Positions 31,440 to 33,735 of a stretch of DNA of 64,000 nt are shown here, in pieces. Source of the DNA: Pararoseomonas baculiformis (GTDB lineage: Bacteria > Pseudomonadota > Alphaproteobacteria > Acetobacterales > Acetobacteraceae); assembly GCF_017813395.1 (NCBI RefSeq), contig NZ_JAGIZB010000006.1, positions 124,001-188,000 of the forward strand, read 5' to 3'. Made by a program: the position numbers and the translations under genes. The notes under the pieces were generated by a model. The model was not told where the DNA came from. It ran no database searches and saw only the letters and a list, made by a program, of their open reading frames with translations. Positions within the stretch are counted from its first letter, which is position 1; every line of letters begins with the position of its first letter.

Positions 31440-32516
31440 TCACCTCGTGGCCTTCACCTGGGCGGCCTTCACCTGGGCGACCAGCGCGGCGACATGCTCG
31501 ATGGGGGTATCGGGCGTGATACCGTGGCCCAGGTTGAAGATGAAGGGGCGGCCCTTCATGGCGGAAAGGATGCTCGCGGTCGCTTCCTCCAGCGCCGCGC
31601 CACCGGCCACCAGCACCTTGGAATCCAGGTTGCCCTGCAGCGTCACGCCCGGTGGCATGGCTCCGGCGGCCCAGGCCGGGTCAAGCGTCTCGTCCAGCCC
31701 CACGGCATTCACGCCCACGCGCCCGGCATAGGCCGGGATCCCCTCCCCACCCAGGCGAGGAAAGCCGATCAGCGGGTAGTCCGGGCCCAGGCGCGCGCGC
31801 AGGCGCCGCACCAGCTCCGCCGTGGGCTGGACCACCCAGCGCTCGAAGCCTTCGGGCGGCAGCAACCCGGCCCAGGAGTCGAACAGCATCAGCGCCTCGG
31901 CCCCCGCCTCGGCCTGGGCCACCAGATACTCCTCCGAGGCTTCCAGCAGCCGCTCGAACAGCCGCCCCAGCAGCGCCGGGTTCTCCTCGGCCATGTGCCG
32001 CGCCAGGGGGAAGCCATGCCCGCCGCGGCCATCGACCATGTAGCAGGCCACCGTCCAGGGCGCGCCGGCAAAGCCGATCAGCGCCACCCCCGGATGGTCT
32101 TTCTCGAGCCCGGCGCGGATCCGGCGCACCGTCTCCATGATCGGCGCCGCCTTCTGCGCGGCCCTGCCGGGCGTCAGCGCCTCGATCGCCGCCGCGTCCC
32201 GCACGGGATCCAGGATGGGCCCCACCCCATCCGCTCCGCCCTGGCCATAGCGAAGCCCCTGCCCCATGGCCCAGGGCAGCATCGGCAGGTCCGTGAACAG
32301 GATCGCGGCGTCCAGCGGGAAGCGCCGCAGGGGCTGGAAGGTCACCTCGGCCGAGAGGGCCGGGTTCAGGCAGAGCTCCAGGAACCCGCCCGCCTTCTCC
32401 TTCGTCGCCCGGTATTCCGGCAGGTAGCGCCCGGCCTGGCGCATCAGCCAGATCGGCGGCGGCCACACGGCCTCGCCGGCCAGGGCTCGGAGGAAGGGCT
32501 TGTCCACGGCGTCCAT
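31440..32516 (-). CDS. hemE: uroporphyrinogen decarboxylase
   Basis: Decarboxylates the four acetate side chains of uroporphyrinogen III to give coproporphyrinogen III; 358 residues. The N-terminal active-site motif PPIWLMRQAGRYLPEYRATK is complete. DAAILFTDLPMLPWAMG, GFAGAPWTVACYMVDG, and the C-terminal FNLGHGITPDTPIEHV follow. The start is ATG 32516 with AAAGGGG just upstream. The frame stays open to 32753, but that part lies in the origin region and is not HemE-like. hemE bordering the origin is a Caulobacter-type arrangement. Confidence 0.98.
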   Translation of the reverse strand: MDAVDKPFLRALAGEAVWPPPIWLMRQAGRYLPEYRATKEKAGGFLELCLNPALSAEVTFQPLRRFPLDAAILFTDLPMLPWAMGQGLRYGQGGADGVGPILDPVRDAAAIEALTPGRAAQKAAPIMETVRRIRAGLEKDHPGVALIGFAGAPWTVACYMVDGRGGHGFPLARHMAEENPALLGRLFERLLEASEEYLVAQAEAGAEALMLFDSWAGLLPPEGFERWVVQPTAELVRRLRARLGPDYPLIGFPRLGGEGIPAYAGRVGVNAVGLDETLDPAWAAGAMPPGVTLQGNLDSKVLVAGGAALEEATASILSAMKGRPFIFNLGHGITPDTPIEHVAALVAQVKAAQVKATR

Positions 32517-32576
32517 GGCGCCCCTTTCACTCGAATTAGATTTTTTAGGAAAGGAGAAGTGACTGTAGTGCCCTGT

Positions 32577-32804
32577 GAGTCCTGTGGACGCAATCCGCGG
32601 GACTCCTGATCCCGAGGGTTTTCCACAGGCTGGAAGGCCCAGCGACTCGCTAACGGGATGCGAGTCGGTGACTCGCTCCGCAGGACTCATCCACCGTGCC
32701 CGGGATTCCGTCCCGGGTGGCGTGAGTCGTGACTCGCCGCCCCCATGACTCATGGAGGGCGGGAAAAGGCCCGGATCTATCCCCAGGACTCACGTTCATG
32801 AGTC
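32577..32804. repeat. dense array of 12 GANTC sites with nested inverted repeats
   Basis: GANTC occurs at 32577, 32601, 32644, 32662, 32670, 32684, 32704, 32724, 32731, 32747, 32787 and 32800. All but one (GATTC at 32704) are GACTC/GAGTC. Pairs form palindromes: CGACTCGC with GCGAGTCG (32643/32660), GCGAGTC-GGT-GACTCGC (32660-32676), GAGTC-GT-GACTC (32724-32735), CATGA-C-TCATG (32744-32754), and GACTCA with TGAGTC (32787/32799). GANTC is the CcrM methylation target. At about 70% GC one site per roughly 360 bases is expected. The near-uniform GACTC[G/A] form suggests an iteron-like protein site as well. Confidence 0.85.
32619..32627 (+). promoter_or_regulatory. DnaA box
   Basis: TTTTCCACA differs at one position from the DnaA consensus TTATCCACA. 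It is the best DnaA box in the gap and lies between two GANTC sites. Confidence 0.7.
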
Positions 32805-32847
32805 GCGTCCTCCCCAGCTTGTCCCCACTCCGCTAGGCTCTGCCCCG

Positions 32848-33735
32848 ATGCCCCGCACCACCAACCTCCACCTCGTCTCCGACAGCACGGGGGAAACGCT
32901 GAACTCCATGGCGCGCGCCACCCTTGCGCGCTTCGAGGACCCGCATGTGATCCAGCACCGCTGGTTCCTCGTGCGCTCCCGCTTCCAGCTGGAACAGGTG
33001 CTGGAGGGCATCCAGGCGGAGCCCGGGCCTGTGCTCTTCACCTTGGCCGACAAGTCCCTCCGCCACAGCCTGGAGGAGTTCTGCGCCCGGCTCGGCGTCA
33101 CCAGCCTCTCCGTGCTGGACCAGACCCTGGACCTGCTGCAGCGGGAGCTCGGCGCGGCCGCCAAGGAAAAGCGCGCCGCCCAGCACGTGCTGGATGCCGA
33201 TTACTTCCGCCGCATAGATGCCATGCACTACGTCCTGGCCCATGATGACGGGCAGGGAACCGCCGGGATCTTCGAGGCCGATACCTGCCTCGTCGGTGTC
33301 TCCCGCAGCAGCAAGACGCCCACCTGCTTCTATCTGGCCAACCGGGGCATCAAGGCCGCCAACGTCCCGATCGTGCCCGGTGCTCCCCTGCCGGTGGAGC
33401 TGGACAATCCCCCCTGCCCCGTCATCGGCCTGACCATCGAGGTCAATGCGCTGCTCGAGATCCGCCGCCACCGGCTGAAGCTCATCGGCCAGGGCGCTGG
33501 CCCCGGCGCCATCCGCCAGGACAGCACCGACTACGTGGACCCCGAGGCGGTGAAGGCCGAAATCCTCGCCGCCCGCCGCCTCTGCACCTCCCGCGGCTGG
33601 CCGGTGATCGACGTGACCCGCCGCAGCATCGAGGAGACCGCGGCCACCGTCCTCCAGCTGATGGAGGCCTGGCACGCCCGCAACGCGGCGCCCGGCACGC
33701 CGCATGGCGCCAACCAGGGGCCGCCGGCCCGCTGA
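32848..33735 (+). CDS. pyruvate, water dikinase regulatory protein (PpsR/DUF299 family)
   Basis: Bifunctional ADP-dependent kinase / Pi-dependent phosphorylase that controls PEP synthase (or PPDK) by threonine phosphorylation; 295 residues. The N-terminal [18 protein letters not shown] and the nucleotide loop [19 protein letters not shown] (G-x-S-R-S-x-K-T-P) are diagnostic. [18 protein letters not shown] follows near the C-terminus. The start is ATG 32848, at the edge of the proposed origin. The stop overlaps the maf start (TGATG), so both are translated together. In Caulobacter the homologous gene (RP001 type) also borders the origin. Confidence 0.93.

Follow-up and report, generated by a model that had tools for sequence, protein, structure and literature searches.

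A dense, conserved array of CcrM methylation sites in the probable chromosomal origin of Roseomonas

The 331 bp gap between the divergent genes hemE and ppsR in a genome belonging to Roseomonas sensu stricto is very probably the chromosomal origin, oriC, and it is crowded with 12 GANTC sites, the site of the CcrM methylase. The array is real and extreme and, judging from its conservation, under selection, and from it we infer a role in initiation. Such density is maintained throughout the genus and arose independently in Belnapia, which suggests that the initiation of replication there is gated by DNA methylation.

Results

Identification of the probable origin

The window analyzed here is a 64 kb stretch (positions 124001–188000 of its contig) from a 5.25 Mb draft genome. 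The gap lies at 32517–32847 of the window, and its borders are given by HMM matches, both above cut-off, to hemE on the minus strand (uroporphyrinogen decarboxylase, 31440–32516; TIGR01464, 335 bits) and to a ppsR-type kinase/pyrophosphorylase gene on the plus strand (DUF299, 32848–33735; NF003742, 291 bits). The sequence-only reading had likened these borders to those of the Caulobacter origin, Cori, and hemE and ppsR are indeed the genes that border Cori. Among the 70 alphaproteobacterial genomes read, a divergent hemE/ppsR pair surrounds the gap in 64. A longer hemE frame, reaching up to 32753, is rejected because gap lengths among relatives differ by amounts that are not divisible by three.

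The surroundings of the gap provide further, indirect support. There are parS-like sites in the same contig at −13.5, −29 and −57 kb from the gap, and the gene for ParB lies at a distance of about 34 kb. The arrangement in related genomes is similar, with ParB encoded at a distance of 30–40 kb in both R. mucosa and R. rosea, and with the only two parS-like sites in 760 kb sampled from R. mucosa situated approximately −14 and +8 kb from the ppsR region. The strand bias of GGGNAGGG also changes from one side of the locus to the other in R. mucosa (23/80 vs 143/64), and DnaA boxes are present in most of the hemE-ppsR gaps compared. Because ParB, parS-like sites and the GGGNAGGG strand switch are all found nearby, either here or in R. 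mucosa, we conclude that the gap is very probably oriC, so that the earlier call of an origin at this position is well supported, albeit indirectly. On most of the features tested, the strand-composition switch apart, the gap belongs to the hemE-type origins of the alphaproteobacteria.

Organization of the gap

Reading from hemE towards ppsR, the gap contains an AT-rich stretch, a left composite unit, a DnaA box, a dense middle segment with two close inverted GANTC pairs, and a right composite unit. The AT-rich stretch, the DnaA box and the weak DnaA-like boxes had all been picked out beforehand, and each is present. The AT-rich stretch (approximately 32527–32561; 64–72% AT in 25 bp steps) is a candidate unwinding element or hemE promoter, and is partially conserved in relatives. 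The DnaA box TTTTCCACA (32619–32627, plus strand) has one mismatch to TTATCCACA and is invariant in all ten Roseomonas sensu stricto genomes compared; weak DnaA boxes are located at 32687, 32777 and 32819.

The two composite units each join a GANTC site to a DnaA-like box. In the left unit (32576–32592, plus strand) this takes the form GTGAGTCCTGTGGACGC, also given as GTGAGTCCTGTGGAC at 32576, and in the right unit (32777–32793, minus strand), which is inverted relative to the left, a weak DnaA-like box is joined to GANTC in the sequence CTATCCCCAGGACTCAC, with the inverted copy TCCCCAGGACTCAC at 32780. Both units are present in 10 of 10 Roseomonas sensu stricto genomes, as are both sites of each close inverted pair, GAGTCGGTGACTC at 32662–32674 and GAGTCGTGACTC at 32724–32735. 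In the Belnapia clade the position of the left unit reads TGGATGCTGTGGACGCA, without a GANTC, and a DnaA-like box may therefore have been converted to a methylation site in Roseomonas, provided that the direction of change is read correctly.

In R. rosea (L110:1872–2500) the GANTC cluster and ppsR are separated by about 300 additional bases, an insertion that is absent from its relatives. Single-strand folding of the gap is stronger than that of shuffles (z −3.7). The alignment of the gap has almost no compensatory change, which leads us to reject a folded structure, and the hairpins are probably a by-product of the palindromic sites.

Abundance of GANTC sites

The cluster occupies 32577–32804, with sites at 32577, 32601, 32644, 32662, 32670, 32684, 32704, 32724, 32731, 32747, 32787 and 32800; our recount agrees exactly with the 12 first reported, and 11 of these are GACTC or GAGTC. 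The contig background predicts 0.2 GANTC per 228 bp (Poisson probability of the cluster 6e-18). The earlier expectation of fewer than one site is slightly low for the composition of the gap itself, as dinucleotide shuffles of the gap contain 2.18 ± 1.35 sites. The largest number in any shuffle is 9, and none of 5000 reaches 12. No other pentamer of the form XYNY'X' is present in the gap in more than 6 copies.

Elsewhere GANTC is sparse. The rest of the 261 kb contig never has more than 3 sites per 250 bp, and outside the gap the densest 250 bp in the 760 kb sampled from R. mucosa contain no more than 5. The window as a whole contains 53 sites vs 222 expected from dinucleotide shuffles, making them about fourfold rarer. 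GACTC and GAGTC constitute only 22% of GANTC sites in the contig background. A genome-wide pattern scan, blind to clusters that begin and end with GAATC or GATTC, finds several GANTC triplets, with the most overlapping matches at the hemE-ppsR gap. A second dense spot, with six GANTC in about 140 bp, is situated downstream of an FtsX-like frame (G000:C18:43261–43396), and three GANTC lie directly upstream of a frame resembling ihfA (G000:C24:74715–74770), IHF being an origin-binding protein in Caulobacter. GANTC also recurs every 75–100 bp in what is apparently a tandem repeat array (G000:C65:2339–3178) on an 8.6 kb contig with a ParA-like frame, perhaps a plasmid.

The GANTC sites have no consistent helical period. 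With a true minimum spacing of 5 bp, none of the representatives tested has sites separated by 5 or 6 bp, where about 7 such cases are expected, as if each site needs room; other spacing preferences are weak.

Methylation machinery

A CcrM-type methylase, on whose presence the sequence-only reading had depended, is encoded in full length, an N6 methylase with a DPPY motif and a RAMA domain (RAMA match at G000:C1:244289–244561). Full-length GcrA is encoded as well (G000:C1:166010–166504), and its extended motif, YGAKTCG, is matched by four of the 12 sites. Nearly all members of the family have both proteins, also those with only 0–4 sites in the gap, so dense sites in the gap are not a general need. 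The genome has no SeqA, and no PF03925 match is seen across three Roseomonas genomes, the E. coli control being positive. The 64 kb window contains no match to the CtrA box TTAA-N7-TTAA with up to 1 mismatch, and CtrA is dispensable in the Rhodospirillales that have been studied (PMC8116508).

Distribution among relatives

In a HemE+PpsR tree, and judging also by the named PpsR relatives, the window groups with Roseomonas rosea (92% identity) as part of Roseomonas sensu stricto, of which R. mucosa is the outer branch. The hemE-ppsR gap has 11–14 GANTC in all 11 Roseomonas sensu stricto genomes, including our own, 8–11 in the Belnapia clade (Belnapia, Paeniroseomonas and a Craurococcus MAG), and 7–9 in Paracraurococcus and Roseicella. 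Other Acetobacteraceae mostly have 0–5, with 6–8 in some Pseudoroseomonas and others, and a class-wide draw of 64 alphaproteobacterial gaps has a median of 3 and a maximum of 9. The sequence-only reading had put the density above that of the Caulobacter origin, and among the other alphaproteobacterial genera sampled, those of the Belnapia clade aside, none reaches it.

The tree is a quick one, built from two proteins and rooted at the midpoint, and some of its forks are open. Explaining the label '9 or more' on it takes four changes, of which well-supported branches force three, and Roseomonas and Belnapia fall into separate, well-supported clades. As read from this tree, high GANTC density is a separate gain in each of the two. 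The Belnapia origins are alike in having their 8–11 sites in the same gap, mostly as GACTC or GAGTC, but differ in that most sites are at other positions. Nine GANTC, six of them GACTC or GAGTC, are found in a 355 bp hemE-ppsR gap from another family of the class (L263 in G267), possibly a third separate gain.

Conservation of the sites and of their central base

In an alignment of ten Roseomonas genomes other than R. mucosa, ten GANTC positions are occupied in 9–10 of the 10. Identity is 95% in the fixed GANTC columns. It is lower both in the remaining columns of the cluster, DnaA blocks excluded (77%; p 3e-9), and in those directly adjoining the sites (84%; p 2e-4), both tests treating columns as independent. 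The Roseomonas columns are shared by 5 of the 12 R. mucosa sites and by 2–4 of the 10–11 Belnapia sites; as most sites in both thus sit in other columns, it is density, more than position, that recurs. Judged by this conservation and by the second gain in Belnapia, the GANTC sites are under selection, which does not reveal what role they have.

The central base of the sites is 94% identical in the alignment. Sites with C or G at this position number 11 of 12 here and 12 of 12 in R. mucosa, against backgrounds of 22% and 25% respectively, and the ratio of GASTC to other GANTC is 104:24 in Roseomonas and 51:18 in the Belnapia clade vs 3:33 in Neoroseomonas gaps. From this bias together with the clade totals, the added sites are GACTC and GAGTC rather than GANTC in general.

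Discussion

We propose that the hemE-ppsR gap is the oriC of a Roseomonas sensu stricto species and that methylation of its 12 CcrM sites gates DnaA-driven initiation, a reading that we consider to have an even chance of being correct. The sequence-only reading had already taken the density to imply strong control of initiation by CcrM methylation state or a factor such as GcrA; we infer that the 12 sites are methylated, when this happens and how it might affect initiation. Prior to firing, all 12 sites would be methylated on both strands, and departure of the replication fork would then leave all of them hemimethylated together until the late pulse of CcrM. In this interval the hemimethylated array would keep the origin inactive and thereby prevent a second start. 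It could do so by retaining a reader protein with a preference for hemimethylated or GACTC-centred sites, or by disturbing DnaA at the weak boxes that are joined to GANTC at both ends. The evidence that we count in favor of such a gate is the cluster itself, its conservation, the separate gain in Belnapia, the fact that CcrM and GcrA are encoded, the composite units, and the absence of a CtrA box from the window and of SeqA from the genome, while counted against it are the inclusion of the start regions of hemE and ppsR within the same gap and the bias in the central base, which CcrM alone does not explain.

The same sites could instead serve transcription, with GcrA reading methylated GANTC at the promoters of both flanking genes, or at an origin transcript, to time expression. 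GcrA is encoded, its extended motif fits four of the 12 sites and the gap is a divergent promoter region; however, one or two sites would be enough for this, YGAKTCG sites do not rise with the total (2–5 of 11–14 in Roseomonas), and hemE and ppsR are divergent also in relatives with few GANTC, and we therefore regard a transcriptional role as unlikely. A methylation-independent regulator that binds the origin at GACTC and GAGTC as such, its overlap with the CcrM site being incidental, would fit with the added sites being almost all GASTC, with the conserved central base, and with the absence of 5–6 bp spacings in the representatives tested. We find this regulator distinctly improbable, given that flanking preference is weak, that GANTC is the site of CcrM, which the genome encodes, and that the GC-rich composition accounts for part of the C/G bias.

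There is little to recommend a functionless array, in which sites accumulated in a tolerant non-coding gap and persisted by descent, notwithstanding that GANTC in alphaproteobacteria is generally commoner between genes than within them (PMC3973325). Nothing similar is seen elsewhere in the contig or in the 760 kb of R. mucosa, the site columns are more conserved than their neighbors and there was a separate gain in Belnapia, all of which makes this explanation very improbable. It is similarly hard to believe that the gap is a regulatory region with the origin itself some tens of kilobases away. The best fit of the GGGNAGGG switch in R. mucosa does fall at 4.20–4.25 Mb, 50–100 kb from ppsR, and the cumulative GC-skew minimum inside our contig is about 98 kb from the gap, but the skew is weak and noisy, also in the R. 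mucosa samples, and is too weak to decide the position of an origin alone. Against a displaced origin stand the border genes shared with Caulobacter, the positions of the parS-like sites in both genomes, including their absence from the remainder of the 760 kb sampled in R. mucosa, the location of ParB 30–40 kb away, and the DnaA boxes in most gaps.

The proposed methylation gate can be compared with three known systems. Caulobacter crescentus Cori (the hemE-RP001 origin) has the same flanking pair, DnaA boxes and some GANTC sites, but is controlled by CtrA boxes, whereas the Roseomonas gap has 12 GANTC and there is no CtrA box in the 64 kb window. At E. coli oriC, with 11 GATC in about 245 bp, dense methylation sites likewise cover a DnaA-dependent origin, the methylase is a solitary adenine methylase, and its own sites are in excess in the origin, as those of CcrM are here. 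By analogy the gap would work most like Dam/SeqA at E. coli oriC, although the site and methylase are different (GANTC and CcrM) and, with SeqA absent, the gap falls outside that system; sequestration is proposed by analogy.

An older Caulobacter model assumed that a fully methylated origin was required (PMC2217572). Caulobacter lacking CcrM has a normal DNA content, from which the authors conclude that CcrM is not needed for control of initiation (PMC3973325), and this, the chief argument against the proposed gate, urges caution against assuming CcrM control of initiation here. The same study finds origin-proximal sites hemimethylated in about 80% of cells, and its passage citing Shaheen 2009 speaks only of 'several' GANTC at Cori (PMC3973325). 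The third system, the repABC origin ori2 of Agrobacterium tumefaciens, is the chief precedent in favor and resembles the proposed gate in that the level of CcrM alters initiation: ori2 over-initiates under CcrM over-expression, and transient hemimethylation of three GANTC has been proposed by the authors as a brake (PMC11514494). It differs as a plasmid-type RepC origin of a second replicon with 3 sites, compared with a DnaA-type main origin with 12. Our literature search found no paper linking Roseomonas with CcrM or Acetobacteraceae with GANTC.

More tentatively, and with some doubt, we suggest that Roseomonas and, separately, Belnapia may have CcrM/GANTC sequestration of the main chromosome, using a reader other than SeqA that prefers GACTC and GAGTC and replacing the CtrA brake at the origin. 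It has long been asked whether CcrM gates initiation in alphaproteobacteria; the answer from Caulobacter was no, and to our knowledge methylation gating of main-chromosome initiation has not yet been shown in this class. Because so many sites are kept genus-wide and again in a second clade, while the window lacks a CtrA box and SeqA is absent, Roseomonas and Belnapia are natural test cases for methylation-gated initiation, and their close relatives with 0–4 sites in the same gap are natural controls. The Roseomonas and Belnapia arrays would then be a convergent counterpart of Dam/SeqA at E. coli oriC.
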